IMG/VR virus record: IMGVR_UViG_3300032053_014324 | Location: 1 to 64,000 of that record | Direction: 5' to 3' (one strand) | Length of the DNA: 64,000 bases | DNA from: a virus | Part shown: piece after piece, positions 3,699 through 40,396 of the stretch | Layout: every line of letters starts with the position of its first letter | How positions within the stretch are numbered: the first letter of the stretch is position 1 | The notes under the pieces: model-generated | Told to the model about the DNA's origin: nothing | The model's input: the letters and a program-made list of their open reading frames with translations, nothing else | Database searches by the model: none | Made by a program: the position numbers and the translations under genes

Positions 3699-3731
3699 AT
3701 AGGTATACTTAAAAAAGTATTGCGTACCTAT
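3699..3731 (+). repeat. nested inverted repeat overlapping a promoter-like element
   Basis: Outer arms ATAGGTA (3699-3705) and TACCTAT (3725-3731), inner arms ATACTT (3705-3710) and AAGTAT (3715-3720). The repeat covers the CTTAAAA box at 3708. It could be an operator for the nearby RHH protein. Confidence 0.45.
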
Positions 3732-3737
3732 ATTTTT
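3708..3737 (+). promoter_or_regulatory. phage promoter-like element, site 1
   Basis: CTTAAAA (3708-3714), 16 nt, TATTTTT (3731-3737). It lies 21 nt before the start of the first structural gene and just after a strong terminator, where a promoter is required. Confidence 0.6.
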
Positions 3738-3758
3738 AAAAATGCAAGGAGATATGAT

Positions 3759-4688
3759 ATGAACGAGACGTATTCTAACCTTGATCCTAAACAGATCGAT
3801 CTATTAAACAAAAAAATGCAGCAAGTAAGTAACGACCCAATGCTAGCAGATGACCTCCCCTCATCAAAGCTTGCTGGATTAGGTACTTCAATGTCAGCTG
3901 CTTTCACAGGATCAATTCAAACAACAGCACCACTATCGTCACCAGGAATATCAACAATTGTTTCACCAGACAGTGTTTTTGCAACGCCACAAAAAGCAGA
4001 TGCAATTAAATCAAAAATAGCTGAAATAGAACGCGAACTCGGTTCATTAACAGCAGACCCAGTATCAGAAAGTGATCTTACTTACCGAGATAGTACCGGA
4101 AACGAAACATTTTACGTCAAAAATATCTGCGGTGGTCATTATATTCTGAGTGATATGCAAATGGACAAAATACCGGCAGGAAAGTCGGTAGATTTGCTAC
4201 AAATGGCCCAACTGGAAGATTTGAAAAAATCAAGAGATCTACGAAAAGCTATTCGTGGTGTTGGATCAGAAAGGACTCTGCAACGTCTTACTGAAAGAGA
4301 ATATCTTGAAGAAAAACGAAAAGAATTGGAAAATAAGAAGAGGCTTGATATTCTTCAACAGCAGGATCAATTGAGAAGGATGAACCAACCAAACCAACAA
4401 CAGCAACAGCAGCTACTTCCCCATGAGCGCCAATTCGAACCCAATCTTGCAAATAGAGGAATTCGCCCCGCTATAGAAGCACGATTGGGTAAACTCGCCC
4501 TCAGAACAGATAGCAATGCTGACAATAGGCGACAGGCGATGTCGAGCTATGAATTCATATCCTGGCTTCAACAAGAAAGATTGACTCATGCTGAAATAGA
4601 AAATATAATGGGGCACCCTAGTGTCGTTAACGATCATGACATTAGGGCAGCTCTTCTTGAAAAGAAAAAATCCACACCACCTGAATAG
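3759..4688 (+). CDS. putative virion protein with coiled coil and Gln-rich tract
   Basis: A 309-residue protein. The N-terminal 75 residues are Ser/Thr/Pro-rich and probably flexible. A short helix at about 78-92 is followed by a compact beta segment (YVKNICGGHYIL). A long charged helix at about 155-210 ends in a run of glutamines near residue 212. The C-terminus is helical (EFISWLQQERLTHAEI). ATG 3759 is chosen because AAGGAG lies 7 nt upstream; an in-frame TTG at 3720 falls inside the promoter element. It is first in a two-gene operon with the next protein and is probably a structural or assembly component. No family recognised. Confidence 0.65.
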   Translation: MNETYSNLDPKQIDLLNKKMQQVSNDPMLADDLPSSKLAGLGTSMSAAFTGSIQTTAPLSSPGISTIVSPDSVFATPQKADAIKSKIAEIERELGSLTADPVSESDLTYRDSTGNETFYVKNICGGHYILSDMQMDKIPAGKSVDLLQMAQLEDLKKSRDLRKAIRGVGSERTLQRLTEREYLEEKRKELENKKRLDILQQQDQLRRMNQPNQQQQQQLLPHERQFEPNLANRGIRPAIEARLGKLALRTDSNADNRRQAMSSYEFISWLQQERLTHAEIENIMGHPSVVNDHDIRAALLEKKKSTPPE

Positions 4689-4697: not shown

Positions 4698-5633
4698 ATG
4701 CTTAGGTTAGTCAGTGTTTATGAACAAGCGGCGGACCATATTACATTTCAAACAGAAGAATTTACTGGCGAAGCAGTTCCATATGTTATGTTTGATACAA
4801 GTACTGGCGTTTCAATATATTCACCAAATTATACGGAGGATTATCCAGCATGGCGTGCTACTGCTATAGCAACATCCACTGGATCTGCTGTATATAGATT
4901 TACTATTAACAACAGTAATCTCTATCCAGCAACATCTAAAACTATTGCTGATTATACTACCCTCAGTCCTCGTTTGTTCAAAACAATGACTTTGCAGGAG
5001 TATACAATACTTAATGATGTTCTTATTCGATTCGATCTTGTTCGAAGGCGCTTACCAAATCCAGGTATCGGATTAGCATCAACTGATGGTATTGGTGAAG
5101 ATGGAGTAGTTGCTTTTACTGGGGGTCACGAAAAAAAGATGATGATTAGCGAAATCATGTCAATGGGTGAAGGAGCCATTCTTGAAATTAATGGAACTCC
5201 TCCAAGAACACAGTTCTGGCCAGTATATCTAACTCCAGAAAATGATAAAATATATAATCCGTATTATTCAAATGCAGGTATCCCCAATGATATGATGGAG
5301 CTTGCCAAAATGGGAACTCTTATTCGTTGCCTTATAGCTATGGGTATTCTTGAAGTGGATATCAGCTTCTCAACTTCAGATAGCGGACTACAGCTGACAT
5401 TTGACAGAGCAGCAGGTGTTAAAGGATGGCACGATGCCCTCATTACTGAATACAAAGAAATGAAAAGTTTATTCAAATGGAACCACGCCAACCACGCGGG
5501 TGTGGGGGTCGGAACTGTACCATGGTCAGCAACCGGAATTTGGGGTACTCTTATGAATAATGCTACTTCTGGCGGAACATTGGGGCTTACATCATTATTG
5601 GGCTTTACCGCCCGTGGTAATGTTCCACTATAG
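4698..5633 (+). CDS. putative virion structural protein
   Basis: A 311-residue globular protein with no signal peptide, beta-rich at the start and end and helical in the middle (about 195-265). Two STG tripeptides (DTSTGV, ATSTGS) resemble those in the fibre proteins. It follows the coiled-coil protein by 9 nt and is closed by a strong terminator. Position and composition suggest a head or neck virion component. I do not recognise the fold, and it is not obviously an HK97-type capsid protein. Confidence 0.65.
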   Translation: MLRLVSVYEQAADHITFQTEEFTGEAVPYVMFDTSTGVSIYSPNYTEDYPAWRATAIATSTGSAVYRFTINNSNLYPATSKTIADYTTLSPRLFKTMTLQEYTILNDVLIRFDLVRRRLPNPGIGLASTDGIGEDGVVAFTGGHEKKMMISEIMSMGEGAILEINGTPPRTQFWPVYLTPENDKIYNPYYSNAGIPNDMMELAKMGTLIRCLIAMGILEVDISFSTSDSGLQLTFDRAAGVKGWHDALITEYKEMKSLFKWNHANHAGVGVGTVPWSATGIWGTLMNNATSGGTLGLTSLLGFTARGNVPL

Positions 5634-8105: not shown

Positions 8106-8840
8106 ATGGATAAAAAATCAGACATGGGAGTATCTGTTTCAGGTGCACCTGATTCTTTAGCAGGAAATCTTAATTATACACTGCCTCAGAAATTTCAAGA
8201 TCCCGGCACAGATATATTTAAAACAGTAGCTCCCTTTGACGTAGTGCATCGAACTCCCGAAAGAGTAGAGTTGCAATATAATGATGCGCTGAAGCCAACG
8301 GTGCTTCCGACAGATTCAAAATATGATAATAACAATAAATCAAATACCGTCGATTCAGGAAATAAACAGGTTGGTGATACTGATTTAGCAGCTAAAGCCA
8401 ATAGATCATCTATGGGATCATGGAGTATTGCTATGAATGAACAACAATTTTCGAAAGTAAGTAACATTGATTCTCTTATAAAAACTGCAGAAGACGATTC
8501 TATTAAAAAGAAAATAATGGAATGCTTCGCTAAAAATGAAAACCCACCTGATGCAAAGATACACAAGATGGCAGAAAAACTTGGTATCGAACCTGATAAA
8601 ATGGAAGAGGCTATTTATAAACTTCTATCTTCTTTTCTATCTCAAGGGAAATCAAAAGATTATACTGGTGAGTATGATCCTGAAGAATTGAGAATGGGTA
8701 TTGAAGTTGAGATGGAGCATACGAATGACAGAGATATTGCAGAACGAATTGCACGGGATCACCTCGCAGAATTCAAGAACTATTACACTGCTCTTAAAAA
8801 GATGGAAGAAGGATTAAAGAATCAATCATTTGAGAAATGA
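8106..8840 (+). CDS. virion-associated protein with SIDELIK motif and DUF5661-like C-terminus
   Basis: A 244-residue protein. The N-terminal 110 residues are polar and low complexity. Residues about 118-128 carry NIDSLIKTAED, one copy of a motif shared by seven proteins here. A helical segment (about 130-180) has a winged-helix-like feel (KMAEKLGIEPDKMEEAIYKLL). The C-terminal 50 residues (YDPEELRMGIEVEMEHT, then RIARDHLAEF and YY) match a domain I know as DUF5661, frequent in phage structural regions. Role unknown; a head-associated protein is the best guess. Confidence 0.6.
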   Translation: MDKKSDMGVSVSGAPDSLAGNLNYTLPQKFQDPGTDIFKTVAPFDVVHRTPERVELQYNDALKPTVLPTDSKYDNNNKSNTVDSGNKQVGDTDLAAKANRSSMGSWSIAMNEQQFSKVSNIDSLIKTAEDDSIKKKIMECFAKNENPPDAKIHKMAEKLGIEPDKMEEAIYKLLSSFLSQGKSKDYTGEYDPEELRMGIEVEMEHTNDRDIAERIARDHLAEFKNYYTALKKMEEGLKNQSFEK

Positions 8841-8841
8841 A

Positions 8842-9123
8842 ATGAATACCGGAATGGTTTTTATGGATAAAGGGAGTTCCTTTAATAAAATCAGTTTTAT
8901 TGTGCATATGAAAGGGCATAAGAACTCATCTGGAGAGATCGCTCCGTATGTAATAAAATCGCACGAAACCAATAAAATTCTATCTTCTCATAAAACTCGT
9001 GGTGAAGCAGAAAAACATTTAAAACAAATGCATGCGCACTCAGGTTCGTTTATAGGTGTAAGAAATATAGATGAACTTATTTCAGGAGGTACATATGAGC
9101 AATGTAACCTTTACCGAAGCTGA
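8842..9123 (+). CDS. small protein ending in a SIDELIK-type motif
   Basis: A 93-residue protein. Its core reads YVIKSHETNKILSSHKT, then EAEKHLKQMH, a recurrent small alpha/beta unit in phage proteins. Near the C-terminus is FIGVRNIDELISGG, a copy of the shared motif. The start is uncertain: ATG 8842 follows the upstream TGA by one base, and ATG 8854 is an alternative. It overlaps the next gene by 29 nt. Function unknown. Confidence 0.55.
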   Translation: MNTGMVFMDKGSSFNKISFIVHMKGHKNSSGEIAPYVIKSHETNKILSSHKTRGEAEKHLKQMHAHSGSFIGVRNIDELISGGTYEQCNLYRS

Positions 9124-9349
9124 TTTTTCTAGCATGGACAAGAAATCAAAAGAGATGCTCGGATGGACATTTAAAGAGAAATTTGGTATGAGCATTAAAG
9201 AAATGGTTGCTGATCCGATTAAAGGACAAGATGCGATAATAGCTGCAAAAAGAAAGGCTGGCTTTGTCGATAGTATACAGATTAAGAAGATAATGGATTT
9301 TTTATCTGAGCCAGATTGGGAACAGACATTGAAGGATAAGCTTGCATAA
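9095..9349 (+). CDS. small hypothetical helical protein
   Basis: An 84-residue protein. ATG 9095 is fixed by a strong AGGAGG (9084-9089) that lies inside the end of the previous gene. The sequence is helical and charged (KSKEMLGWTFKEKFG, IKKIMDFLSEPDWEQTL). The stop overlaps the next start (TAATG). No recognised domain. Confidence 0.6.
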   Translation: MSNVTFTEADFSSMDKKSKEMLGWTFKEKFGMSIKEMVADPIKGQDAIIAAKRKAGFVDSIQIKKIMDFLSEPDWEQTLKDKLA

Positions 9350-9906
9350 TGGAAAAAGATTTGGTTATCATGTGCGATCTCGATGGAGTACTTGCCGACT
9401 TTGCCGGGAGATTCAAAGAATTTGGACACGGTACTATTGGTGCCTTTACAGAAAGGCATGATCATGATGACGCAATTCTTTGGTCGTTCATTAAGAAAAA
9501 AGATCCTGAGTTCTTTCTAAATCTCAAAATGATGTCTGATGGAAAAGAACTATGGAACTATATCAAACAATTCGATCCTATAATCCTAACTAAAATACCT
9601 CGATGGGCGCGTGCTTCCTCAGATAAGAAGAAATGGGTTAAAAAGCATCTTGGAAATGTTAAAGTAATAACCACCACTAAAAAAGAGAAATACGTTGAAC
9701 CTGATGCTATTCTTATTGATGACATGGATGAAAATCTTGAAGCATGGGAAAAAGCTGGCGGTATCGGAATAAAGCATACGTCTGCAGCGAAAACCATAAA
9801 AGAACTCAAAAAAATAATGAAAGAAATTCCTACAAAAGAGGCATCTGAACAATACATGTTTGTAGGTATAAAAAGCATTGAAGACCTACTCGCACACGAA
9901 GCTTAG
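9349..9906 (+). CDS. HAD-family 5'-nucleotidase-like protein with C-terminal SIDELIK motif
   Basis: A 185-residue protein. Motif I is CDLDGVLADF (Asp10 and Asp12 would be nucleophile and acid/base). A conserved Thr in IILTK is motif II, Lys in KKEKY can be motif III, and LIDDMDENLEAW is motif IV. The size and motifs resemble 5'(3')-deoxyribonucleotidases that dephosphorylate dNMPs. Unusually, the last 15 residues (FVGIKSIEDLLAHEA) carry the motif shared by neighbouring small proteins, suggesting that the enzyme is tethered to or packaged with the virion. Enzyme family is sure; substrate and packaging are inference. Confidence 0.8.
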   Translation: MEKDLVIMCDLDGVLADFAGRFKEFGHGTIGAFTERHDHDDAILWSFIKKKDPEFFLNLKMMSDGKELWNYIKQFDPIILTKIPRWARASSDKKKWVKKHLGNVKVITTTKKEKYVEPDAILIDDMDENLEAWEKAGGIGIKHTSAAKTIKELKKIMKEIPTKEASEQYMFVGIKSIEDLLAHEA

Positions 9907-9948
9907 TCTAAAAACAATCAAAAATCATTCCTTTTACAACATAACTCC

Positions 9949-9978
9949 CTTAAAAACAAATGCGTTATCATTATATTT
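9949..9978 (+). promoter_or_regulatory. phage promoter-like element, site 4
   Basis: CTTAAAA (9949-9955), 16 nt, TATATTT (9972-9978). It lies in a gap of 116 nt after the HAD gene. Its position makes an ATG start at 9960 unlikely for the next gene. Confidence 0.6.
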
Positions 9979-10022
9979 CAAGGATAGCACGTAGTATAAT
10001 TATGCTGTATAAGGATAAACCA

Positions 10023-10370
10023 ATGCTTACTAATCGCAAACTTACTGATCAAATAAAAGCCATTGAACGAAGCGGACAAGCAGATGGTCGGTCTAAGGAG
10101 TATATCATGAAAGCACTTATCGGAAATACATCTAAATATGGTGAAAAATCAATGGAACCACACAAGAAATCAATTGAGCTCGATCAAAATGATCGTACAA
10201 GTATTGAAGAAATAATAACAAAAATAGCCGGTGTTAATGATATTAGCAATGTCTCGTTTGTAACCATGAATCTTACACATAATGATTGTGTTGTAAAATT
10301 TAGCTGTGAAGAAAAAAAAGAAAAGAAGAGAACAGAGGAGATGGGAGATGGAGCAAAACTGGAGGCATGA
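10023..10370 (+). CDS. hypothetical protein
   Basis: A 115-residue protein, basic and helical at the start (MLTNRKLTDQIKAIERSG), then an alpha/beta stretch with IEEIITKIAGVNDI and a strand VSFVTMNLTHNDCVVKF, ending in a lysine/glutamate-rich tail. ATG 10023 has AAGGA seven bases upstream; the longer frame from 9960 would run through the promoter-like element. The next start follows its stop by one base. Function unknown. Confidence 0.55.
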   Translation: MLTNRKLTDQIKAIERSGQADGRSKEYIMKALIGNTSKYGEKSMEPHKKSIELDQNDRTSIEEIITKIAGVNDISNVSFVTMNLTHNDCVVKFSCEEKKEKKRTEEMGDGAKLEA

Positions 10371-10371
10371 T

Positions 10372-10638
10372 ATGGCCGAAGTATTGGATGAGAGATTTAG
10401 CAGTGCTCAGTCGCTACAGGACTTAATAAAAAAAGCTGGGTCAGATACTACTATAATTCTTACTCTAAAAGAAATTGAAGATATCATAAAAGCTATGAAT
10501 GTTATTCAACAATCTGCAGCTCTTCTCCCATCTGCCCCTGAATCTGATGTAAAGGATGAGCAAAATATGATATATAGCCAACTTGATACGGTATATCAGA
10601 TACTAACAAAAAAACAAAAATCAGAATCAATAGTATAA
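10372..10638 (+). CDS. small helical protein with SIDELIK-type motif
   Basis: An 88-residue protein. GGAGG at 10361-10365 fixes ATG 10372. Near the N-terminus, SAQSLQDLIKKAGSD is a divergent copy of the shared motif. The rest is helical (LTLKEIEDIIKAM, IYSQLDTVYQILTKKQK) with heptad-like spacing and may form a coiled coil. Confidence 0.6.
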   Translation: MAEVLDERFSSAQSLQDLIKKAGSDTTIILTLKEIEDIIKAMNVIQQSAALLPSAPESDVKDEQNMIYSQLDTVYQILTKKQKSESIV

Positions 10639-10645
10639 GGTATTT

Positions 10646-10984
10646 ATGGCAACATGTAAAGTATACGGATATATTGTAGATGGTTCAGAAATACCTCTTT
10701 CAGGAGTAGCTATTCAGTTTATTCCTGCAGCGCTACCTGCAGTAAACTCAAGTACAGGGAAAGCAATTGTACCGAGAACCGTTGAAGCATTTACAACATC
10801 AACAGGATACTTTGAAACCAATCTTCTAGTTAATACAGATTTTGTTGCTATTATAAACGCACTTGGATTGAAAGAAAAAATACGAATACCTCAAGCAGTA
10901 AGCGCAAATCTTTTTACGCTTACAGGAATGTACACGAGCGGAGATCCTACACCAAGTGATCCTGGAACAGAACCTCAATGGTAG
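10646..10984 (+). CDS. putative Ig-/transthyretin-like virion protein
   Basis: A 112-residue protein. CKVYGYIVDGSEIPLSGVAI, then a strand with F-I-P, and TSTGYFETNL follow the order of carboxypeptidase-regulatory-like (transthyretin) folds: first strand with G, P-L-x-G-V, and a G-Y/F-F closing strand. Such domains are common in phage neck and tail adaptor proteins. It has two STG tripeptides. The C-terminal 20 residues are Pro/Thr-rich. It lies next to a large virion protein, consistent with a structural role. Confidence 0.6.
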   Translation: MATCKVYGYIVDGSEIPLSGVAIQFIPAALPAVNSSTGKAIVPRTVEAFTTSTGYFETNLLVNTDFVAIINALGLKEKIRIPQAVSANLFTLTGMYTSGDPTPSDPGTEPQW

Positions 10985-11014
10985 TATGATTAAAATAAAA
11001 GAGGCACTATTATA

Positions 11015-12043
11015 ATGCGCTGGGCTCATGGAGACAGACTCCCGTCAATAAAAACAGTAATGGATCGATACCGAATATTGAATCGGATGGTCGATCGCAA
11101 CCGCACCAAGATGTGGGCTGCGGGATCTCCCTGCACGTACTGGAGAAATGTATCTGTTGATAAAATGGGTGCTCTTGTTCAGAATCAAACTAAATGCTAT
11201 TGCTGGGCAACCCCCGCAGGCGGAGACAGCCAGCAAAGCCAACCGGATAGAAAGCACTTTCTTTGTATGGGAACTGGGATGTTATCTGGTTATCAAAAAT
11301 ATGGGTATCATGAAATAGCCCTCAGTACACCCTCAAATCTCACAAAATCTTCACCCAATCTTGTTATATCGGGTGATCGAGGAAGCAGCTACATATTGTC
11401 GGGAACAACCTTGGCAGAAACTTTGACAACAGAAAGGCTGGCCTTAACACGTTTTAAAGATGTTACGTTTTTTCTTGCAAACGAATCTACCGATAAAGAT
11501 CAAAACAGAATTGAATATGAATACTCAACAGATGATATAACCTGGACTACGATAGTAATGACTGACTATGTATCTCCATTAGCTAATAAGCAAGGAGCTC
11601 TGTCACTCCCAGCAAATACTGAATATATCCGATTCAGAGTAAGACTGAAAAAAAGAGTTGCTACGGCAACATCACCTAAATGGAACAGCATTCGATTCAG
11701 ATATAGAAATCATGTTATGATTAAAGAGATGGACCCAAGATTCAATTTAGCCATGCCTGCTTTTCTTGCTGCACGAGAACAACAATCTCGATACATCGAA
11801 CAGGGCGAATACGGTTGGATAACGAAGTTCCCCGTTGAATGGTGGACACTTCCTGACGCAGATATTCTTAATACAGATATAATTACATTTCTTCAAGGAA
11901 CGTACTCCGGTTATAAATTTCAGGTAAAAAATCTCAGGGAATTTGCATATGGGGAGAACCTTCAAATACTACACAAGGGATTTGAAAGTTCTCTTATTCG
12001 TGATAAGAATGAGCTGCTTGGTATTATACACTATCTTATGTGA
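11015..12043 (+). CDS. putative virion structural protein
   Basis: A 342-residue globular protein. The basic N-terminus (DRYRILNRMVDRNRTKMW) is followed by a Cys pair region (about 60-85) and a long beta-rich middle (about 95-235) that reads like a jelly-roll or discoidin-like layer (FKDVTFFLAN, IEYEYSTDD, ITWTTIVM, TEYIRFRVRLKKR). The C-terminus has WWTLPDADIL and a short alpha/beta part. It lies between head-side and sheath genes, consistent with a neck or head-tail joining protein. No family assigned. Confidence 0.6.
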   Translation: MRWAHGDRLPSIKTVMDRYRILNRMVDRNRTKMWAAGSPCTYWRNVSVDKMGALVQNQTKCYCWATPAGGDSQQSQPDRKHFLCMGTGMLSGYQKYGYHEIALSTPSNLTKSSPNLVISGDRGSSYILSGTTLAETLTTERLALTRFKDVTFFLANESTDKDQNRIEYEYSTDDITWTTIVMTDYVSPLANKQGALSLPANTEYIRFRVRLKKRVATATSPKWNSIRFRYRNHVMIKEMDPRFNLAMPAFLAAREQQSRYIEQGEYGWITKFPVEWWTLPDADILNTDIITFLQGTYSGYKFQVKNLREFAYGENLQILHKGFESSLIRDKNELLGIIHYLM

Positions 12044-12051
12044 GGATGCAA

Positions 12052-12330
12052 ATGGAATTTCAAGGAATTACTTCTATTGACGAGCTTATCAAACACGCTG
12101 ATGCTAAATTTGAAACAACAGGCATTGGTTCAACTTTAGGTGGAATTGCAGGCGCAATCGTCGGTCAGTTTATTCCAATTCCTATCGTTGATGATATTCT
12201 TCTTTCATGGTTGGGCAGCAAAGCTGGTGATTGGCTAGAACGACACTTCACTGAACCAAAGAGTGAAGAAGAAGCTAAAACTAATCTCGCAAAAGCAAAA
12301 CAACTATATGAAGAGGAAAAAGGTTCATGA
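12052..12330 (+). CDS. SIDELIK-motif protein with glycine-rich membrane-like segment
   Basis: A 92-residue protein starting at ATG 12052 (GAGGA upstream), so it begins MEFQGITSIDELIKHADAK, the cleanest copy of the shared motif. Residues about 27-60 are a Gly/Ala/Ile-rich segment (GSTLGGIAGAIVGQFIPIPI) resembling glycine-zipper membrane-inserting peptides. The tail is charged. A motif plus a membrane-active segment could mean a protein delivered with the DNA or tail, but this is speculative. It overlaps the next gene by ATGA. Confidence 0.65.
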   Translation: MEFQGITSIDELIKHADAKFETTGIGSTLGGIAGAIVGQFIPIPIVDDILLSWLGSKAGDWLERHFTEPKSEEEAKTNLAKAKQLYEEEKGS

Positions 12331-12830
12331 AATTTGCTGGAATAAAATCTCTAAATGAGCTTCTTATCAAAGAAGGAATAGCATCTGATATTGATAATGA
12401 ATTCATCGAAGATTTCACAGAAAATCTGAAAATATTTCCCGATACTGTTGAAACAATACCCACCAGCATAGCCGGACCAGACAGAGATGTTGGTATATTT
12501 AACCCATATATAGAAGAAATGGGAGCATCTATAAAAGCAACGGCACAAATTTCGAAAGAGACTGCTTTGAGTATTGGATTGGGCCAAGGATCGATTAAAG
12601 AGTATATTGAAAATAATGCTGCAGGTGCCGTAAGAAATTTTTCAGAGCAATGGGATATTATAGAAAAGTTATTCGTAAGTTCCATATATAATGACAGAGT
12701 TCAAAACGCAGGAATACCAATACAAGAAATAAAAGATGAGGTTAATCAGGAATTTCGCTGCAGCCTTCTTGAAATTGCTAACAGTGAAGAGGGCAGTTCA
12801 TTTATATTAAAATTAGAATTTTTTGTTTAG
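12327..12830 (+). CDS. SIDELIK-motif protein
   Basis: A 167-residue protein beginning MKFAGIKSLNELLIKEGIA, a second N-terminal copy of the shared motif directly after the first. The remainder is acidic and helical (DNEFIEDFTENLKIF; YIENNAAGAVRNFSEQWDII) with a final beta stretch (SSFILKLEFFV). No recognised family. Its neighbour with the same N-terminus suggests a common route or partner. Confidence 0.6.
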   Translation: MKFAGIKSLNELLIKEGIASDIDNEFIEDFTENLKIFPDTVETIPTSIAGPDRDVGIFNPYIEEMGASIKATAQISKETALSIGLGQGSIKEYIENNAAGAVRNFSEQWDIIEKLFVSSIYNDRVQNAGIPIQEIKDEVNQEFRCSLLEIANSEEGSSFILKLEFFV

Positions 12831-12840
12831 GAGATCTCAC

Positions 12841-13452
12841 ATGGTTAACAAACTGACCTTACATCAACTTAATCTTAAATATGCATCCGAAGGGCTTGAT
12901 CTTTTAAAAGCTGTTCGAGCATGGAAAGACCTTCAATTCACACCTGATTCAATCAGAGATCAAGTAAGAAATGATGTTGGTACTACTATTACCGCATCGG
13001 ATGCTCGAGAACTGTATCATCTTGGATCATCAATGAAATATGATTATGATGCAATGGCTAAACCTTATGAAGTCAGCAAGGGACGAGAAAAGCTTATCCC
13101 AGATAACATAAAAAATGAGCAGCGCAAGCTTAGCCCTGCAGTCAAAATGTCAATGGAGCGTCTTGGTCAGAATCTATATCGAGACAAAAAAGCAAAAACA
13201 TATTGGACTCTCAAAGAGAAAGTTGCTGATAACGGAGAAAAAGCTGTATATCTGGTGGCTATCGAAGAACCAGATGATGTTAAAAAAACTGCAGCGTTGT
13301 CAGGTGTTGATGGAGAACCGGGTACAGCATATTCAAAAGAAAATGTAAAAGCACAGGGCGAAGAATCTCCTGAAAATCCTGTGGGAAAGTCAACGGAACC
13401 AAAAGACAAGGAGCAGTGGAAGAATGAGCTTTCAGAACACGGAAACTATTGA
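12841..13452 (+). CDS. hypothetical virion-associated protein
   Basis: A 203-residue protein. ATG 12841 is set by AGGAG directly after the previous stop. The N-terminus (LTLHQLNLKYASEGLDLLK) is a distant echo of the shared motif. The middle (about 60-145) is a compact alpha/beta domain (MKYDYDAMAKPYEV, YWTLKEKV, AVYLVAI). The last 50 residues are polar and disordered. It overlaps the next gene by 29 nt. Function unknown. Confidence 0.55.
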   Translation: MVNKLTLHQLNLKYASEGLDLLKAVRAWKDLQFTPDSIRDQVRNDVGTTITASDARELYHLGSSMKYDYDAMAKPYEVSKGREKLIPDNIKNEQRKLSPAVKMSMERLGQNLYRDKKAKTYWTLKEKVADNGEKAVYLVAIEEPDDVKKTAALSGVDGEPGTAYSKENVKAQGEESPENPVGKSTEPKDKEQWKNELSEHGNY

Positions 13453-13702
13453 TACCCTCATAAAACAAGCTGAGCTTGAAGTACTTCTGAAGCGTGTGAC
13501 AGTTGAATCAGATAGGGGTACGATTGTTACCCCTGTGCGCTGTCCTGCAAAAGGGAGGGTAGATGATTATCAACGAGATGGAGAAGGAAAACCTGCCTGT
13601 GTATATAATAACAGCAATTGTCATTATTTTGGCAGGTCTATGTTTGATCTCGATGGTTATGTTAAACAAATTATATGTACGTTTGAAGAAGGTCAAAAGT
13701 AG
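13424..13702 (+). CDS. small Cys-containing protein with SIDELIK-type N-terminus
   Basis: A 92-residue protein beginning MSFQNTETIDTLIKQAELE, an N-terminal copy of the shared motif. The rest contains spaced cysteines (RCPAK, ACVYNNSNCHYF, ICTFEE) and one His that may bind a metal, plus a strand-rich centre. It starts inside the end of the upstream gene and is followed two bases later by the gene before the sheath. Function unknown. Confidence 0.6.
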   Translation: MSFQNTETIDTLIKQAELEVLLKRVTVESDRGTIVTPVRCPAKGRVDDYQRDGEGKPACVYNNSNCHYFGRSMFDLDGYVKQIICTFEEGQK

Positions 13703-14536: not shown

Positions 14537-15928
14537 ATGGCTGGATTAGGATATCGCTTACCAGGGACTAGAATCGAGGAGCAGACCCTCCCGCAATCAG
14601 TTAATATATCATCTTCACAACGGATACCTTGTTTCATAGGAGTTGCCAGTGACTATATAAAAGTTACGTATGAGCAGGTTGTTCGAAGCTCTACTGGTTT
14701 AGTAGACAGTTTATTATACACTGCGGCAGGAATTCATGAAATTACGCAAGTTGGGTCTCAAAAAGGTTTGAATGACTATGTTCAAGGAACTCATTTTAAT
14801 CTTGTAAATAATCAAATCGTCTGGGTATCAGCTGGAATTGTTACAATAGGAGCAACTTACTTTGTAACATATTCCTATGACCGTCCATATGATCCAATTG
14901 ATATTACTGATGTGACTAAAAATGATTATCGTTACAAAGAATTTACGAATTTTGAAGATGTTGTGACTGATCTAGGAGATGACATTCCTGAACACCCGCT
15001 TGTTATGATAGCTAAAATAGCTCTTCGGTATTACAATGTTCCGATGATAGCAACCGTACAAGTTCGGACCGGATCGTCCTCAGATTATGCAGTTGCGCTT
15101 GAGCTTATAAAATACCGTGACGTTCAAACAATTGTACCCCTTACTACGAATTCTACAGTAAGAACATTAGTTATTAGTCATGTGACTGAAAGAAGTTTAC
15201 CTGATAATATGAGAATGAGGATGGCTTGGTTTGGAACAGCAGCAGGAACTCCGATAGGTTCTGAGTCAGATCCAACGTCTATTCGGGGAATAGCTGCGAG
15301 TGTTAAAAATGAATTGTGTATGGTTGTCAATGCAACACGAGCTAAATATTATTACAATGATCCTGTTACAAAAGAAGAGCTGTATACAGTAGTCGATGGG
15401 TCGTTTATAGCAGCCGCACTTGCCGCATATCGTGATTCCTTCGTGTACCCATCGACTACTTTACTCAATAGAACTGTAGCCGGTCTTGAATTATTCGATG
15501 AAGATTATGATGATTACTATTCAGAGTATCAGCTTACTTTGGCTGGTGGAAGTAGTGTATTTCTTGTTGAGTCTCTTGGTGGAGTAATGCGTGTTGTTGA
15601 CGATTTAACAACTGATAATTCAACTGTTGAACGTAACAATATCAATGTTATCACTGCCAAGCACTACATTGCTAAAGATGTTGCTATTCAAATGAATAGA
15701 ACCTTTAAGGGAAGACTTATTACAGATGCTGGAAGTTATACTAATACAGTATCTTCCTATCTATCGTCGATGTTTGCGGCTTATAAAAAAGCTTCTGTTA
15801 TTGAAAGTATAGGAACCATAAAAGTAAATATAAGCCCAGAAAGACGTGATACCATAGAGATACATTATGAGTATACAGCGGTGTACACGAATAAGTATAT
15901 AGAAGGAACTTACTCACTTCTCGTGTAA
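14537..15928 (+). CDS. contractile tail sheath protein
   Basis: A 463-residue protein. The N-terminus has the sheath hallmark P-G-T-R-I-E-E (residues 9-15). A beta region follows, then the central alpha/beta domain (about 150-330), and a C-terminal domain (ITAKHYIAKDVAIQMNRTF, then IKVNISPERRDTIEIHYEY) as in Phage_sheath families, with the final strand used for subunit linkage. It polymerises round the tube and contracts on infection. It has its own promoter-like element, a strong AAGGAG site and a terminator, as expected for a very abundant protein. Confidence 0.9.
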   Translation: MAGLGYRLPGTRIEEQTLPQSVNISSSQRIPCFIGVASDYIKVTYEQVVRSSTGLVDSLLYTAAGIHEITQVGSQKGLNDYVQGTHFNLVNNQIVWVSAGIVTIGATYFVTYSYDRPYDPIDITDVTKNDYRYKEFTNFEDVVTDLGDDIPEHPLVMIAKIALRYYNVPMIATVQVRTGSSSDYAVALELIKYRDVQTIVPLTTNSTVRTLVISHVTERSLPDNMRMRMAWFGTAAGTPIGSESDPTSIRGIAASVKNELCMVVNATRAKYYYNDPVTKEELYTVVDGSFIAAALAAYRDSFVYPSTTLLNRTVAGLELFDEDYDDYYSEYQLTLAGGSSVFLVESLGGVMRVVDDLTTDNSTVERNNINVITAKHYIAKDVAIQMNRTFKGRLITDAGSYTNTVSSYLSSMFAAYKKASVIESIGTIKVNISPERRDTIEIHYEYTAVYTNKYIEGTYSLLV

Positions 15929-15989: not shown

Positions 15990-16013
15990 ATTTTACAGAT
16001 GAGAGTAAATTAT

Positions 16014-17831
16014 ATGAAAGAAAAAATGTGTAGGCATTGTGGCACAAAGGAAAATCTACGAACTAATAAGAATGGTGTCGTTTATAACTGCTGCAAACAT
16101 TGCTATGAAACTATTGAAGTGCCCGATCAAATTAGAAAAGCGAATGAGAGTATTGTTGCGAAGTATGGTGTTTCTGATTTAGGAGAGCTTCGACAAAAAA
16201 GATCAAAGGATAATCCTCCAAAACAAAAGGAGAAAAAAATCGTAACATGCAAGTATTGTGGAACAACAGAAAATCTTGTTGTAACAACAACTAAAAAGAG
16301 AACTATTTCTTTTCATACCTGTAAAGAACACTGGGAGCAGTATCAAAAAGATAAGTATGAAGTAAGAAAAAAATCTAACAAAGAAAAATTTGGAGTTGAG
16401 CAGCCTCTACAGAATAATGACATTAAAAGTAAATTCAAACAAACTATAAATAGTAAGTCTCTTGTAGAAAAAGAGAGCATTAATAAAAAAAGAGAACAAA
16501 CTAATTTAGATAAGTTTGGAGTGACAAATCCCAATAAGTTAAAAGAATTTGCAGATAAAAGAAAAAACACCCTATTAGAAAAATACAGTGTATCGAATCC
16601 TATGGAATCCGCTGAATTTAAAGAAAGGCAGAAAAAGACATTATTAAAAAATTTTGGAGTAGATAATCCTCTCAAATCTAAAGAGATAAGGGATAGAGTA
16701 AAAAAGACTAATTTAGAAAAAAGAGGAGTAGAGTACCCATCACAATCTTTAGAAGTTCAAAATAAAGTTAGAAAAGCAAAAAGAATTGTGTATTGGGACA
16801 TATTTGTAATTCTTCTTAAACAAAAGAATACCCTACCTTTGTTTACAAAAGAAGAATACATTGATGCTACCGGCGAGCTTACATATAAATGTTTAAAATG
16901 TAACTCTGTTTTTAAATCAGAAGGAACAGCTCCACAAAGAATTACCTGCTCTTGCTATCATAGAAAGTCTTTGTATGAGTATGAAATAGAAGATTGGCTT
17001 AGATCTTTAAATATAGAAAATATAAAACCAAACGAAAGACTTTTCGAAAAAGGAGAAGGTAATTTTGAAATAGATGTGTACTTACCAAACTATAATCTAG
17101 GCATAGATTTCAATGGTCTTTACTGGCATTCCAATGTATATCAAAGAAGCACGTATCATAGAGAAAAATATATATTCTTTAAAAAGAAGAACATATCCTT
17201 TATTCAAATTTTTGAAAGTGACTGGTTGTCTAATAAGGATGTAGTGAAATCTATTATTCTAAATAAACTCAGCTCCTCTGAAAAAATACAAGCAAGAAAA
17301 TGTACCGTATCCGACGTTCCTGAAAAAGATTATATGCGCTTTTTGTCAGAGCACCATCTACAGGGGTATGCCTCAGCAAGCATAAAGCTGGGATTATTTT
17401 TTAATAATGAATTAGTGTTTGTTATGTCGTTCGGAAAACCTCGTTTTAGTGAAAAGAAAGGATTTGAAATCATTAGATCCTGTTCTAAAAAAGGATACCT
17501 AATAATAGGTGGGTTTGATAAATTACTTTCTTATTTTGAAAATACCTATGCGCCAGAAAAATTAATCAGTTTTATAGATATTCGATACTTTAATGGAAAT
17601 TCTTATAAGGCATCTGGATTTATTTTAGAACACCATACTGATCCAAACTACTATTACTTTGATCCAAAAAACCCAACAGCCCTATTTAGTAGAATAGCCT
17701 TCCAAAAGCATAAACTCGCTGGAAAACTCAAAGTGTTTGATCCCGCTCTTTCTGAATCTGAGAATATGTATCTCAATGGGTATCTAAAAATATATGATGC
17801 TGGAAACCTAAAGATGGTTAAAAACTATTAA
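16014..17831 (+). CDS. free-standing homing endonuclease with zinc fingers and VSR-like nuclease domain
   Basis: A 605-residue protein. Two Cys-rich modules come first (MCRHCGT...CCKHC; TCKYCGT...TCKEH). Five NUMOD-like DNA-binding repeats of the type K-F-G-V-x-N-P then run over about residues 123-250 (KFGVEQP, KFGVTNP, KYSVSNP, NFGVDNP, KRGVEYP), mostly spaced 22-23 residues. A third Cys cluster precedes a VSR/EDxHD-like nuclease core (YEIEDWL, FEIDVYLP, IGIDFNGLYWHS, then IQIFESDW). A C-terminal half with AGKL resembles phage-associated partners of such nucleases. It lies between sheath and tube genes, interrupting no frame. Role: self-spreading by cutting alleles that lack it. Confidence 0.8.
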   Translation: MKEKMCRHCGTKENLRTNKNGVVYNCCKHCYETIEVPDQIRKANESIVAKYGVSDLGELRQKRSKDNPPKQKEKKIVTCKYCGTTENLVVTTTKKRTISFHTCKEHWEQYQKDKYEVRKKSNKEKFGVEQPLQNNDIKSKFKQTINSKSLVEKESINKKREQTNLDKFGVTNPNKLKEFADKRKNTLLEKYSVSNPMESAEFKERQKKTLLKNFGVDNPLKSKEIRDRVKKTNLEKRGVEYPSQSLEVQNKVRKAKRIVYWDIFVILLKQKNTLPLFTKEEYIDATGELTYKCLKCNSVFKSEGTAPQRITCSCYHRKSLYEYEIEDWLRSLNIENIKPNERLFEKGEGNFEIDVYLPNYNLGIDFNGLYWHSNVYQRSTYHREKYIFFKKKNISFIQIFESDWLSNKDVVKSIILNKLSSSEKIQARKCTVSDVPEKDYMRFLSEHHLQGYASASIKLGLFFNNELVFVMSFGKPRFSEKKGFEIIRSCSKKGYLIIGGFDKLLSYFENTYAPEKLISFIDIRYFNGNSYKASGFILEHHTDPNYYYFDPKNPTALFSRIAFQKHKLAGKLKVFDPALSESENMYLNGYLKIYDAGNLKMVKNY

Positions 17832-18886: not shown

Positions 18887-19579
18887 ATGGAAAAAATGAA
18901 ACCATTCAATCCCATGCCTGAAACCTTGGATGATACTAAAATCAATCCGAATGATATGCTTGGACCAAACAAAACAGATACGTTCGAACAAGAAGGTGTT
19001 TTTGGAGATCCTGATGTACGGCCAACAATAACTCGTCAAAGAGAAATTGATGATATAGTACGGCAACGGCTGACTGACGATGTATTAAATAAAGAAATCC
19101 TCAACGAAAAGATACGGCAGGATGTTGCTGCATCAAAAACTTCTCCCACTCAAAAAGAAGCAAGAACACCCAGAGAATTTTTGAAACTTCTTATTGCCAA
19201 AGGTGAATACAAAGAAGACATCGATATTTTTGGGCAAACCTGGACAATCCGAGCGCTCAATCAAGGAGATATCATAGAAGCTTTTAATGATATAAAAGAC
19301 TGGGCTTCAACAACAGAAGGAAAAATAAATACTATACTGCTGTCTCAAATTGCTTTTTCTATTGAAGCCATGAATGGAGTTTCAGTATATGAATGGTTTT
19401 CTGACGTAGTTCAACGAAGTGAATTCAGTACAACTGAAGAATATAAATTAGCTATTCGACGAGTTCTTAGAAGATATCTGGAACAGATGTCAAACGATGT
19501 TATAAAGCAGTTTGATAATGCATATGCAATCGTAGAATCTAAAAGAAATGAGGCTCTTGCTGAACTAAAAAAATCCTAA
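18887..19579 (+). CDS. tail assembly chaperone (short form)
   Basis: A 230-residue protein. The N-terminal 95 residues are polar and charged. The remainder is a compact helical domain (PREFLKLLIAKGEYKEDIDI, FGQTWTIRALNQGDIIEAF, then a helix bundle with MSNDVIKQFDNAYAIVESK). Its place between tube and tape measure, plus the frameshift site at its end, identifies it as the counterpart of lambda gpG or P2 E: it coats the tape measure before tube assembly. The zero-frame stop is TAA 19577-19579, immediately after A-AAA-AAA. Confidence 0.8.
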   Translation: MEKMKPFNPMPETLDDTKINPNDMLGPNKTDTFEQEGVFGDPDVRPTITRQREIDDIVRQRLTDDVLNKEILNEKIRQDVAASKTSPTQKEARTPREFLKLLIAKGEYKEDIDIFGQTWTIRALNQGDIIEAFNDIKDWASTTEGKINTILLSQIAFSIEAMNGVSVYEWFSDVVQRSEFSTTEEYKLAIRRVLRRYLEQMSNDVIKQFDNAYAIVESKRNEALAELKKS

Positions 19580-32617: not shown

Positions 32618-33970
32618 ATGAAAGTATGTATTATCAGTCCTGATACTGTACCACTACCATTAAAGGATAATCCTCCAGAATTTATAACAGAAAATGGCCA
32701 AGAATATTTACTAAAAAACAAATGTTTACGAGCAACTGGTCTTGGAAAAAGAGCATGGAAGCTTGCTGAAGCTTTATCAAAAGAAAACGATTTCGAAGTT
32801 ACCCTCCTTGTTCCCGATCTCAATTGTCCAAAAAATGATCTTATCGACAAATCGAAACTTACATTTGACATAGAACAATATAATTTCAAGGTTGCAACAT
32901 GGAATTGGTCGGAGGAGCTTGATAAGAAATTACTTAAGTATGATTTTGTGATTGTTCAGTCCGCAGCAGGAACAGGATTTAAAAACTGTTCCGTGCTACC
33001 AGGAAGCATCAATGTCATTATGGATGGGTTCGTCCCACTGTTTGCAGAGCTTCCCTGCACAATCCTTGGAAAATCAACAATTTCTCGAAAGGTCTTCTGG
33101 GAATCATTTCGTCAGCAATACTTGAATCTGATCACACGGGCAAACTGCACACTCTACGCAACGGATCGTCAGTATTATTACTATGAGGGGCAGTTCTTTG
33201 CAACGGATAAGTTGAACTGGAAAGCTTTTAAATTTTCTCCGTTGTTGAAAGTTCCCCTGGGTGTTGACATTGTTGAAAAAGTGCAGAAGGAGAACACATC
33301 GACTCGATTGAAATTGCTCTGGTTTGGTCCCATCTATCCCTGGTACCGACCGGAAAAATTGTTGGAAATAGCACCTGATCTGAAAAACACAGACATTGAT
33401 TTTGTCGGAGTGAAACATCCCCGCTACGGCAACACCTACAATAACTTCTTTAAGAAATTCTTTGAATCAAATTCTTCATCGTATAACATCACGGTGACTG
33501 AGGAATTTTGTGATGATCCTGCAGAACTCTATACACATTACGACGCAGGTATTATTCTGGCCTGGGATTGGCTCGAGGAGAAATACTCAGTGCGCGGCAG
33601 AATCCTGGACATGATCTCCCATGGACTCCCAGTGATCATCAATGAGAATAATTCATTCTTCAATGAACTCAGATATATCAATGATTCCATCTATCCCACA
33701 AGCGCACACACATTGCGACGAGACATCCAGAGATACGAAACTAATAAATCTTTCCTCACCGTGTCTGATCGATCTCACAAATTGTTGCAGAAAAATCTCT
33801 CATGGTCTGCTGTCGCTTCTCCCTTGATAGAATATATTCGACGATTCTCTCTGGATTCACTCGAGGAAGAAAATAAACTTATTCGAAAAGAGAATGTATA
33901 TAATCAAACTGAAGAGAGCGATTCACCGCGTTTAAAAAATTTTAATTCGAAAAATGAAATAACAATATGA
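32618..33970 (+). CDS. GT-B glycosyltransferase
   Basis: A 450-residue protein with a two-lobed GT-B plan. The N-lobe starts MKVCIISPDTVP and has GLGKRAWKLAEALSKE. The C-lobe starts about residue 225 (LKLLWFGPIYPWYRPEKLLE) and has the donor-side phrase SVRGRILDMISHGLPVI. It likely transfers an activated sugar to a growing glycan in the cytoplasm. It is the first gene of the sugar island and overlaps the next by ATGA. Base composition is clearly higher in G+C than in the next genes (28 of 60 at 33301-33360 against 19 of 60 at 35581-35640), a sign of different origin. Acceptor unknown. Confidence 0.8.
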   Translation: MKVCIISPDTVPLPLKDNPPEFITENGQEYLLKNKCLRATGLGKRAWKLAEALSKENDFEVTLLVPDLNCPKNDLIDKSKLTFDIEQYNFKVATWNWSEELDKKLLKYDFVIVQSAAGTGFKNCSVLPGSINVIMDGFVPLFAELPCTILGKSTISRKVFWESFRQQYLNLITRANCTLYATDRQYYYYEGQFFATDKLNWKAFKFSPLLKVPLGVDIVEKVQKENTSTRLKLLWFGPIYPWYRPEKLLEIAPDLKNTDIDFVGVKHPRYGNTYNNFFKKFFESNSSSYNITVTEEFCDDPAELYTHYDAGIILAWDWLEEKYSVRGRILDMISHGLPVIINENNSFFNELRYINDSIYPTSAHTLRRDIQRYETNKSFLTVSDRSHKLLQKNLSWSAVASPLIEYIRRFSLDSLEEENKLIRKENVYNQTEESDSPRLKNFNSKNEITI

Positions 33971-36216
33971 CAGATTCTGACGAAAGACCATTAATATCTA
34001 TCATCACGCCTGTATACAATGGCACCATTGCTTACATCCGGGCTGCTTTTGATTCCCTTAAAAAACAGACATACGGAAACTGGGAATGGTGCGTCTGTGA
34101 TGATGGTTCAACTGATCCTGCAGTTGTAAGTTACGTGCGCTCACTCAGTGATGACAAACGAGCATCAGTAAAATTTCTCAATAAAAATTCAGGAATTGCC
34201 TTTGCGAGCAACGAAGCGGTCAAACTAGCTTCTGGTCGTGTCATAGCTTTTCTTGATCATGATGATGAGCTTCATGAAGATGCTCTTATGGAAATTGCTA
34301 CAATCTTTAAAGATTTCGCTGCCGACATTGTGTACACCGATGAAGCTTTGAAATATGAAGATAGACTCGTAGAACATAGAAAGCCTCGGTTCTCTCCCCA
34401 TTACCTCCTCTCAACCAATTATATCTGTCACTTTCTTGCAGTAAAAAAAGATTTATTTAATAGCATAGGTGGCTTCAGAGCAGGTTTCGAAGGTTCCCAG
34501 GATCATGACCTTGTTCTTCGATTAACGAATGCATCAAGAAAAGTTTTCCATATTCCAAAAATTCTTTATTATTGGAGACGCCATGCTGGATCATTTAGTG
34601 ATGTTTCAAAAGGACTTAGTATAGCTGCCACAAACGGAATTAAGGCAGTATCAGATGAACTTCGACGAAGAGGCATTCTTGCTGAAGTTACGAATCCTGG
34701 TGGTAAGACTCACTATAAAATAAAACCAATGCTTTTGAACAACCCTCTTGTAAGTATAGTAATTGCCACGCACGCTGCAGACAGAAATATTAATGTTGCT
34801 GTTGATTCAATTGTAAACAAAACAATCTATGACAATTATGAAATTGTTATATTATCAGATAATATAGATAGTCTTAAAAATATCTATAAGGGTGATGCTC
34901 GTATAAAAACCATACATGACAAATCGAGCGATTTCAAATTATCAAGAAAACTTAATTCCGCTATAAAGTATGCAGCAGGACAGCATGTTGTAGTAGTACA
35001 TGATGATATAAGAATAACAGATTCCAATTGGATAGAGTGGCTTCTGAGCTATTCACAAGATCCATTAGTAGGAGTTGTAGGATGTAAAATTCTTAATCAA
35101 AATGGAACAGTTCAAAATTTTGGATTAGCTGTAGATTCAATTAATTTTATATCTCAACTTTTTTCTGGATTAGATAAAGACGAAATGGGGCACATGGGAA
35201 GAGCTATTCTCACTCAAAATGTCTCAGCATTACCTTCAGCATTGATGATGTTTAAAAGAGAAGTATTTGATAAAGTTGGTGGATTTGATGAGAATTTTTA
35301 TGGATTTCACTTTGATGTTGATCTTTGTATACGAATTAAAGATACAGGATTGTTTAATATTGCTGTTCCCTATTGCACCGTTACTCATTTAGGAACAAAT
35401 ACTCGATATAAGTCTCATGGTGCAAAGACACCTGCTTTACAAGAATTAGATAAAAAGATTTTTAAAACAAAGCACGAACATTCATTAAGGAATGGTGATC
35501 CCTATTACAATCCATTTATAATTTCGGAATCTGTACTACCAGAACAGCTTAATCAACAAGAAAATAAAGAAACATTTATTGTCCAAGAAGAAATTGGTAA
35601 AACACAACAACATATTGCTAAATCCACTAAAGAACATTCTAAAGGACTAGTTTCATACATTGTACCATGGTATCAACAAGCACCTGTTGCCATACCATCT
35701 TTGCTTGCACAATCATATACTAATATAGAAATTATAATAGTATATGATGGTCCTATGAAACCTGAAATTAGAAGACAAATTGAATATATCAATGATAGTC
35801 GAATACATCTTTTAAGTACTCCAAAACGATATAACGATTGGGGACATACACCACGAAATTTTGGTATTGATATACTATCAAGCAAAAGTGAGGGTGTCAT
35901 ATTTACGGGAATCGATAATTATTATTTTCCAACATTTACAGAAGAAGTTTTTTACCCTATTGCCACAAGTGATGTTATTGTGGCATCATATTGCAACATG
36001 ATACATAATGGTAAAAATTGGATGCATGTTGAGGTTAGTCTTGACTATGGAAAAATAGATTGTGGGTGCTTTATTATTCGTTCAGACATAGCTCGAGAAT
36101 TTCGTTGGGGAAGTCGCGTTTCATGGGAAGATTGGGTATTCATTGAAAAAGTAATTAAGAAGTATGGGATGAATCGAATAGCAAAAGTACCGAGAATGTT
36201 GTATATACATAATTAA
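33967..36216 (+). CDS. triple-domain GT2-type glycosyltransferase
   Basis: A 749-residue protein with three GT-A (family 2) domains. Domain 1 (about 8-235): ISIITPVYNG, DDGSTDP, FLDHDDELHED as metal-binding DxD region, and a QDHD-type ED. Domain 2 (about 258-500): VSIVIATHAAD, VVVHDDIRITD, GGFDENFYGFHFDVDL. Domain 3 (about 557-749): VSYIVPWYQQAP, FTGIDNYYFP, WEDWVFIEK, weaker in the DxD. It could add three sugars or act as a polymerase-like enzyme. A linker rich in Gln/Lys (about 530-555) lies before domain 3. No membrane segment. Confidence 0.85.
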   Translation: MTDSDERPLISIITPVYNGTIAYIRAAFDSLKKQTYGNWEWCVCDDGSTDPAVVSYVRSLSDDKRASVKFLNKNSGIAFASNEAVKLASGRVIAFLDHDDELHEDALMEIATIFKDFAADIVYTDEALKYEDRLVEHRKPRFSPHYLLSTNYICHFLAVKKDLFNSIGGFRAGFEGSQDHDLVLRLTNASRKVFHIPKILYYWRRHAGSFSDVSKGLSIAATNGIKAVSDELRRRGILAEVTNPGGKTHYKIKPMLLNNPLVSIVIATHAADRNINVAVDSIVNKTIYDNYEIVILSDNIDSLKNIYKGDARIKTIHDKSSDFKLSRKLNSAIKYAAGQHVVVVHDDIRITDSNWIEWLLSYSQDPLVGVVGCKILNQNGTVQNFGLAVDSINFISQLFSGLDKDEMGHMGRAILTQNVSALPSALMMFKREVFDKVGGFDENFYGFHFDVDLCIRIKDTGLFNIAVPYCTVTHLGTNTRYKSHGAKTPALQELDKKIFKTKHEHSLRNGDPYYNPFIISESVLPEQLNQQENKETFIVQEEIGKTQQHIAKSTKEHSKGLVSYIVPWYQQAPVAIPSLLAQSYTNIEIIIVYDGPMKPEIRRQIEYINDSRIHLLSTPKRYNDWGHTPRNFGIDILSSKSEGVIFTGIDNYYFPTFTEEVFYPIATSDVIVASYCNMIHNGKNWMHVEVSLDYGKIDCGCFIIRSDIAREFRWGSRVSWEDWVFIEKVIKKYGMNRIAKVPRMLYIHN

Positions 36217-36229
36217 TCAGGAGGAAAGA

Positions 36230-36853
36230 ATGAAAATTATACAATCAAAAGATTTAGCAGTACCTGGAGTTAAAGTCATAAAATTTGGAAAATTTTATGA
36301 TCACCGTGGATATTTTGCTGAAACATTTAGAAAGAGCGATATGGCAAAAGAAGTAGGATTTGACATTGTTCAGATGAATGAAAGTTTATCGAAGAAAAAT
36401 GTTGTGCGTGGCTTGCATTTTCAATGGAATCCCTACATGGGAAAACTGGTTAGAACAGTGAAAGGCCACATGGTTGATTTGATTCTGGATATACGAAAAG
36501 GAAGTCCCACATACGGGAAGGCCATCGCATATGATATGCCTGTAAGTTTGGATTTTGAATCTGAATCTGAGTGGATATGGATACCTGCAGGATGTGCACA
36601 TGGTAATTTTTTCAAGGAAGTAACAATGATTGAATATCTGTGCTCAGGTGAATACTCTCAAGGATGTGAAGCATCAATTTCTCCTGCATCAAATGATATT
36701 GATTGGTCACTCTGCGAACCAAAATTGCATGAAGAGATAGTAGCTCTTTTAAAAGATGATGCTGTCCTGTCGGATAAGGATAAGCAGGGTTTTTCATTAC
36801 ATCAGTGGGAGAACAAAAAAGAATCTGACAATTTTATATATGGTGAATGCTAA
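36230..36853 (+). CDS. rmlC: dTDP-4-dehydrorhamnose 3,5-epimerase-like protein (RmlC family)
   Basis: A 207-residue cupin. Key features of RmlC are visible: DHRGYFAETFR at the start, VRGLHFQ with catalytic His63, GKLVR with Lys72, DLILDIRKGSPTYG, and IPAGCAHG followed by Tyr136. It epimerises C3 and/or C5 of dTDP-4-keto-6-deoxyhexoses. RmlA and RmlB are absent from the window, so substrate must come from the host or from genes elsewhere. Its length (207 against about 180-190) includes a C-terminal extension. The gene name marks the family; strict rhamnose specificity is not proven. Confidence 0.8.
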   Translation: MKIIQSKDLAVPGVKVIKFGKFYDHRGYFAETFRKSDMAKEVGFDIVQMNESLSKKNVVRGLHFQWNPYMGKLVRTVKGHMVDLILDIRKGSPTYGKAIAYDMPVSLDFESESEWIWIPAGCAHGNFFKEVTMIEYLCSGEYSQGCEASISPASNDIDWSLCEPKLHEEIVALLKDDAVLSDKDKQGFSLHQWENKKESDNFIYGEC

Positions 36854-38830: not shown

Positions 38831-38863
38831 TAAAAATAGATATTGGATAAGAAGGAGATAAAA

Positions 38864-40383: not shown

Positions 40384-40396
40384 GGAGATTTCTTTT

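Follow-up and report, generated by a model that had tools for sequence, protein, structure and literature searches.

A peptide tag of 15 residues was found on seven otherwise unrelated proteins encoded in positions 1 to 64,000 of the IMG/VR virus record IMGVR_UViG_3300032053_014324 (hereafter the window, which is nearly the whole of a 64,197-base contig). This motif is probably a capsid-targeting tag similar to that of phage T4, by which cargo proteins would be loaded into the prohead core. Two functions had been offered for it in the original prediction, namely docking or packaging, by analogy with the T4 capsid-targeting sequence (CTS), and a role related to the prohead protease. The evidence consists of the portability of the tag, of the concentration of its carriers in the block of genes from the portal to the tail sheath, and of the final residues of the tag, LIKxA, a pattern enriched in the scaffold and protease proteins. 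At the level of sequence, it supports combining both functions in a single element.

Occurrence and portability of the tag

The seven copies (Table 1) follow the approximate consensus F-x-x-I/V-x-[S/T/N]-[I/L]-[D/N]-[E/D]-L-[I/L]-[K/R]-x-[A/S], laid out as a hydrophobic anchor (F/Y) at position 2, a helix-capping residue and then [S/T/N]-I-D-E-L-I-K-x-A. All of them were located in the genes to which the original prediction had assigned them, while the 'GI' that it had included in the motif was not invariant and does not appear in the corrected consensus. Each copy was scored with a profile of the other six and outscored all other real proteins of the window, whereas the maximum of a shuffled window proteome (300 trials) reached the score of the copy in 0 to 5% of trials, copy by copy; each is therefore above chance. 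With gene starts taken from the open reading frame (ORF) calls made in this analysis, three copies begin at residue 2 of their protein and one at residue 8, one ends at the last residue, one stops 10 residues short of the C-terminus and another is internal, which bears out the placement first described, at either terminus or internally and on an enzyme as well as on small proteins. The carriers had also been described as otherwise unrelated, and indeed pairwise BLASTP of the motif-masked carriers gave no match at E<=1.

Relatives of the window were found through the tail sheath, the conserved 11015 protein, the capsid protein and the protease, while the 12040 protein, when searched directly, gave no relatives. 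Tiled reading covered seven contigs of relatives (up to 253 kb). A held-out profile, built from the seven copies of the window alone, was applied to ~1,600 proteins encoded by relatives. At a score of at least 18, a total of 8 matches were obtained vs. 0.15 expected, all 8 being terminal. At a score of at least 14, the matches were 18 vs. 0.95 expected (13 N-terminal, 3 C-terminal and 2 internal), with N-terminal windows accounting for 6% and C-terminal windows for 18% of the scanned positions. The carriers of these matches are non-homologous proteins. The search of the proteome and of relatives proposed with the original prediction thus found the motif to recur. Moreover, a later profile detected a near-perfect N-terminal copy (MHFAGITNIDELLKNA, L077:1343; 0 expected) in a previously unused phage, where the protease gene directly follows the tagged gene. 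A weaker N-terminal tag (MFNWYKMSSISELVKVG, 0.3 expected) was found on a Nudix hydrolase (L074:924) whose gene lies between the protease and core genes. Overall, at least eight contigs of related large phages encode the tag on proteins that are otherwise unrelated, DUF5662 and DUF6582 proteins also being among those tagged. A looser profile iteration gathered non-terminal look-alikes such as SLSEIKSLDDLKEKL and was dropped, the held-out test being used instead. Since I-D-E-L-I-K is a common helix-type sequence and weak internal matches (score 12-13) do occur in unrelated proteins, a chance likeness of generic amphipathic helices was considered. However, the excess and the terminal position of the held-out matches, the significance of each copy in the leave-one-out test and the L077 copy make this explanation extremely improbable.

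The tag is portable: it occurs on non-homologous proteins and changes ends within one enzyme. In particular, the HAD deoxyribonucleotidase of the window (NT5C; phrog_2643) carries it as a C-terminal extension, while two homologues, in G003 (45% identical; MNLKGIATIKELLRKA...) and G007 (39% identical; MNFRNMKTINDLIKVS...), carry it as an N-terminal extension, and a third one, in G005 (41% identical), has it at neither end. The AlphaFold2 model computed for the window enzyme had a confident core (~90) and a linker (residues 161-174) below 50, while the tag appeared as a short low-confidence helix outside the fold. Likewise, the KGHKNSxGE domain has a C-terminal tag in the window and an N-terminal one in G003. 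The family of the cysteine-rich protein 13424-13702, which has fixed cysteines and whose gene always immediately precedes the 13705 gene upstream of the sheath, is conserved with a variable N-terminus. It carries the tag in the window and tag-like N-termini in L003 and L004, while the proteins of L007 and L009 start directly at the core, the tag region being missing in L007, L009 and L011. The structure model of this family was poor (mean pLDDT 57.5) and was excluded from the evidence.

Six adjacent genes of G007 open with MNF-type tags that are nearly identical, five of them passing the profile. Such an arrangement would suit a functionless relic of exon-like shuffling or gene duplication. 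The codons of these tags differ widely, however, so that they did not arise by a recent DNA duplication; furthermore, the tag has been retained across phages with strongly diverged head proteins and occurs on both ends within one enzyme family, so that a relic is very unlikely.

Table 1. Tag copies of the window and genes that delimit or accompany the tagged block
Feature	Position	Strand	Details
Tag copy, internal, QFSKVSNIDSLIKTA	8445..8489	+	residues 114-128/244 of 8106-8840 protein; DUF5661 domain follows
Tag copy, near C-terminus, SFIGVRNIDELISGG	9046..9090	+	residues 69-83/93 of 8842-9123 protein; KGHKNSxGE domain precedes; K-x-A site absent
Tag copy, extreme C-terminus, MFVGIKSIEDLLAHEA	9856..9903	+	HAD deoxyribonucleotidase 9349-9906, from residue 170/185 to last residue; K-x-A site absent
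Tag copy, near N-terminus, RFSSAQSLQDLIKKA	10393..10437	+	residues 8-22/88 of 10372-10638 protein
Tag copy, N-terminus, EFQGITSIDELIKHA	12055..12099	+	residues 2-16/92 of glycine-rich small protein 12052-12330
Tag copy, N-terminus, KFAGIKSLNELLIKE	12330..12374	+	residues 2-16/167 of 12327-12830 protein
Tag copy, N-terminus, SFQNTETIDTLIKQA	13427..13471	+	residues 2-16/92 of cysteine-rich protein 13424-13702
Conserved gene	3720..4688	+	homologues just downstream of major capsid protein gene in relatives
Second conserved gene	4698..5633	+	homologues downstream of major capsid gene in relatives
Conserved gene	11015..12043	+	different, non-homologous tagged genes beside it in relatives
Tail sheath protein	14537..15928	+	3' border of tagged block

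Some further observations concern tagged or tag-like proteins of the relatives. A tagged DUF5662 protein (L035:7901-9613, minus strand, equivalent to G007:26901-28613) is split by an intein with C2H2 zinc fingers and an HNH-like part. Long head-module proteins (G004:45072-47891 and 47896-48267; G005:152001-153959) contain further, looser tag-like segments, for example KFSTFDEFMKEV, RYSSYEDFLQQ and RFKNLDEFLKYG, and their sequences look as if several tagged cargo pieces had fused.

The LIKxA ending and the predicted protease site

The end of the tag coincides with the pattern most enriched in scaffold-like proteins, which is also enriched in the head maturation protease. Expressed as hydrophobic-K/R-x-A (hKxA), this pattern was enriched 4.1x in scaffold-like proteins (n=6, the scaffold being recognised solely from its position, composition and hKxA content), 3.8x in the protease and 3.2x in a second core protein, vs. 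1.0x in the capsid, 1.3x in the portal and 1.2x in other proteins, while reordered or acidic versions of it mostly gave values of ~1x. In previously unused phages, the enrichment was 3.5x in the scaffold and 3.6x in the protease. When the proteins of single genomes were ranked by hKxA, the scaffold took first place among 62, 80 and 79 in three genomes; in a fourth one, it was second of 80. Moreover, hKxA came first in nine scaffolds when 885 short patterns were scanned without bias (z=12.3), although z-scores overstate the evidence because homologous proteins are not independent, a flaw from which the single-genome ranks are free. The same scan on T4 gp22 returned hxE/LxE, thus recovering the motif of the T4 protease gp21, which cleaves after L/I-x-E (PMC9026906); the method is therefore supported. 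In addition, among 254 T4 ORFs ranked by [LI]xE, gp22 was first and gp21 third. Phage prohead proteases autocleave in the region just behind the catalytic domain (PMC5694885), and the sequence LLK[VI]A (VLKIA in the most distant one) was found just behind the catalytic domain in 6/6 proteases of these phages.

A hydrophobic-K/R-x-A or -S end was present in 19 of the 20 N-terminal or internal tags vs. 2 of the 5 C-terminal ones (Fisher P=0.016, a small and post hoc comparison), and three of these five (8842, 9349 and G002:18257) keep the upstream part of the tag without the site. The motif might thus be a mere recognition sequence of the prohead protease, head proteins entering by other means, as the near-constant ending of the N-terminal and internal tags and the very short motifs of prohead proteases (PMC9026906) would allow. 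This is improbable, however, as conservation reaches ~10 residues upstream of the site (F..I..I.EL) and the retention of the upstream part in C-terminal tags without a site would be unexpected of a pure cleavage site.

A conserved segment related to the tag, KEAFxxFMxKxIDEFIKIAKF, was found in the scaffolds at a fixed place ~60 residues from the C-terminus. Because the scaffold carries this segment at a fixed place, it is suggested that the tag imitates a scaffold contact, the sequence likeness being suggestive of a copy of the scaffold segment.

Gene neighbourhood and proposed head loading

Considering the four largest contigs, 9 of the 15 carriers were found in the portal-to-sheath block, among portal, protease, scaffold, capsid, neck and sheath genes, compared to 201 of all 1,288 genes (P=1e-4), with the borders of the block set in this analysis from the portal and sheath positions. 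When the G007 operon was counted once, the proportion was 9 of 11 (P=2e-6). As far as gene location tells, the motif is thus not equally common in non-virion proteins, the outcome that the original prediction had named as its refutation. The head genes of G005 were assigned by PHROGs as portal (phrog_16240), head maturation protease (phrog_18299) and major capsid protein (phrog_2522), all three of which were traced to homologues in relatives. The contig of the window does not include the capsid, portal, protease and scaffold genes. The tagged block of the window was placed in the head-to-tail region because the homologues of the 3720 and 4698 genes lie just behind the capsid gene in relatives. 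The slot beside the 11015 gene is filled here by the 12052 and 12327 genes.

The location of the window carriers, between post-capsid genes and the tail sheath, is also what would be expected of a docking peptide for a partner other than the prohead core, such as the neck, the tail, the baseplate or a phage-organised compartment in the infected cell, and some carriers of the relatives are distant from head genes (G007:25-30 kb, G003:76860). Elsewhere, however, carriers were found upstream of the portal, between the portal and the protease or between the protease and the scaffold. Moreover, the final part of the tag has the pattern with the highest enrichment in scaffold and protease, and enzyme cargo would suit head loading better than tail docking. 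Docking to another partner is consequently regarded as rather unlikely.

Several observations weigh against a capsid-targeting tag. All relatives come from one clade, and the tag was absent from Rctr197k, the nearest named relative, as well as from the first 50 kb of Bacillus phage G, both having related capsid or protease genes. Of the 15 carriers in the four large contigs, 6 are not in the portal-to-sheath block, and a single operon holds five of these. The hKxA enrichment was not repeated for the second core protein in further phages (only 1.2x), is missing from the capsid protein and could arise in part from helix amphipathicity, although the permuted controls argue otherwise. The tag-like segment was individually significant in just 3 of 9 scaffolds. 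In addition, the T4 internal proteins IPII and IPIII reached just positions 24-25 of 265 with the tag profile, and C-terminal or internal placement is not the pattern of the T4 tags, which are N-terminal. As a separate observation, the annotation of Rctr197k includes two CRISPR arrays and ~40 tRNA genes (L098:10804-12318 and 19282-19536; L099:23789-41097).

Under the capsid-targeting reading, the tag, probably a short amphipathic helix, would bind to the scaffold core or to the inside of the shell during prohead assembly, and the cargo would thereby be enclosed, namely the deoxyribonucleotidase, the Nudix hydrolase, the DUF5661, DUF5662, DUF6582 and KGHKNSxGE proteins, and others. The prohead protease would cut after or near LIKxA, so that N-terminal tags would be removed and the cargo set free within the head, from which it may exit with the DNA and be ejected into the host. 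The very C-terminal tags, mostly without the K-x-A site, would remain attached. More tentatively, with the chances put at slightly below even, these contigs may represent a clade of large uncultured phages with a general head-loading system, made up of an interchangeable tag for either end, apparently modelled on the scaffold, and a prohead protease specific for K-x-A rather than x-x-E, which would load fast-changing enzymes and proteins of unknown function for delivery with the genome. The records searched contained no cultured member of the clade, and a tail sheath profile search of genome contigs gave no match, hence no host or prophage was indicated.

If the head-loading reading is true, the head cargo of uncultured phages could be read out directly from sequence, and internal head proteins, which are normally hidden without virion proteomics, could be listed by means of a 15-residue tag. 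The deoxyribonucleotidase, the Nudix hydrolase and the DUF5661, DUF5662 and DUF6582 proteins would then travel in the virion, while the predicted K-x-A specificity would depart from the x-x-E rule of the T4, phiKZ and SPN3US proteases. Furthermore, a tag working at either end would help to load chosen proteins into phage heads.

Other features of the window and its relatives were also recorded. Shorter proteins matching the major capsid protein by phmmer (G003:239655-240362 and 243631-244740; G005:135674-136540 and 102605-103138) are perhaps vertex-protein paralogues. Behind the sheath gene of the window, positions 15999-17831 encode a 610-residue protein with 'KFGVxNPxxS'-type repeats and a DUF7487 match, which looks like a homing endonuclease; this insert has no counterpart in the three closest relatives (L003-L005), and a similar 652-residue protein lies behind the capsid in L077. 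Inside the tail region, positions 32618-47023 contain sugar/glycan genes, encoding glycosyltransferases, dTDP-4-dehydrorhamnose 3,5-epimerase, DegT aminotransferase, asparagine synthase and NAD-dependent epimerase, possibly for phage-made glycans of the virion or host surface. The 'integrase' assignment of the 6428 protein by PHROGs (E=7e-4) was rejected as a probable coiled-coil chance match.

Comparison with known head-loading systems

A literature search limited to openly licensed papers found precedents in T4, P1, SPN3US and encapsulins, whereas a report of this tag was not found. The T4 internal proteins enter the prohead core by means of a 10-residue N-terminal CTS; for IPIII, no more than the first 10 residues are required, residues 4 and 7 being involved in targeting and residues 8 and 10 in processing (PMC9026906). 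As in the case of the T4 CTS (IPI-III and the propeptides of gp24 and Alt), a short terminal peptide is common to unrelated cargo, in a phage with a portal, a scaffold core and a prohead protease. The T4 peptide ends in the local protease motif, and the present tag in the predicted one. IPII and IPIII both start with MKTYQEFIAEA, and the comparison of TYQEFIAEA with the tag sequence SIDELIKxA revealed a common helix-cap residue, a hydrophobic-x-x-hydrophobic-I spacing and a final A. When the nine-residue core of the tag profile was applied to the T4 N-termini, gp24 (KINELLRES) was first of 265, a protein whose processed propeptide is classed among the CTS-like sequences (PMC5694885). As far as sequence can tell, the resemblance between the T4 and the present tags is one of design, without demonstrated common descent.

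Unlike the T4 CTS, the tag, though mostly N-terminal, is also C-terminal (at least five proteins) and internal (8106); T4 Alt is processed at both ends (PMC9026906). Moreover, the conserved E of the gp21-type L/I-x-E motif is absent from the end of the tag, where K/R-x-A/S is found instead; the predicted cleavage motif is hydrophobic-K/R-x-A. The cargo is also different, and encapsidation is in the present case inferred from sequence.

In phiKZ and SPN3US, which are likewise large myoviruses, many head-loaded proteins are trimmed by a gp21-like protease that autocleaves near its C-terminus (PMC5694885, PMC10052503). However, their propeptides are mostly longer than 100 residues, with no single portable 15-mer, and cleavage takes place after S/A-x-E. 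Another parallel is offered by DarB of phage P1, whose N-terminal 30 residues are enough for the entry of a reporter into the capsid (PMC9024508), although the P1 Dar proteins have no shared consensus, as opposed to the one consensus found here across many carriers. Finally, the cargo-loading peptides of encapsulins are also short tags at a protein terminus, by which enzymes are directed into a shell of the HK97 fold. In contrast to those stand-alone cellular nanocompartments, which are not virions, have neither portal nor protease and do not have their tags cut off, phage head genes are present here, and the partner of the tag would be the prohead core or shell of a phage.

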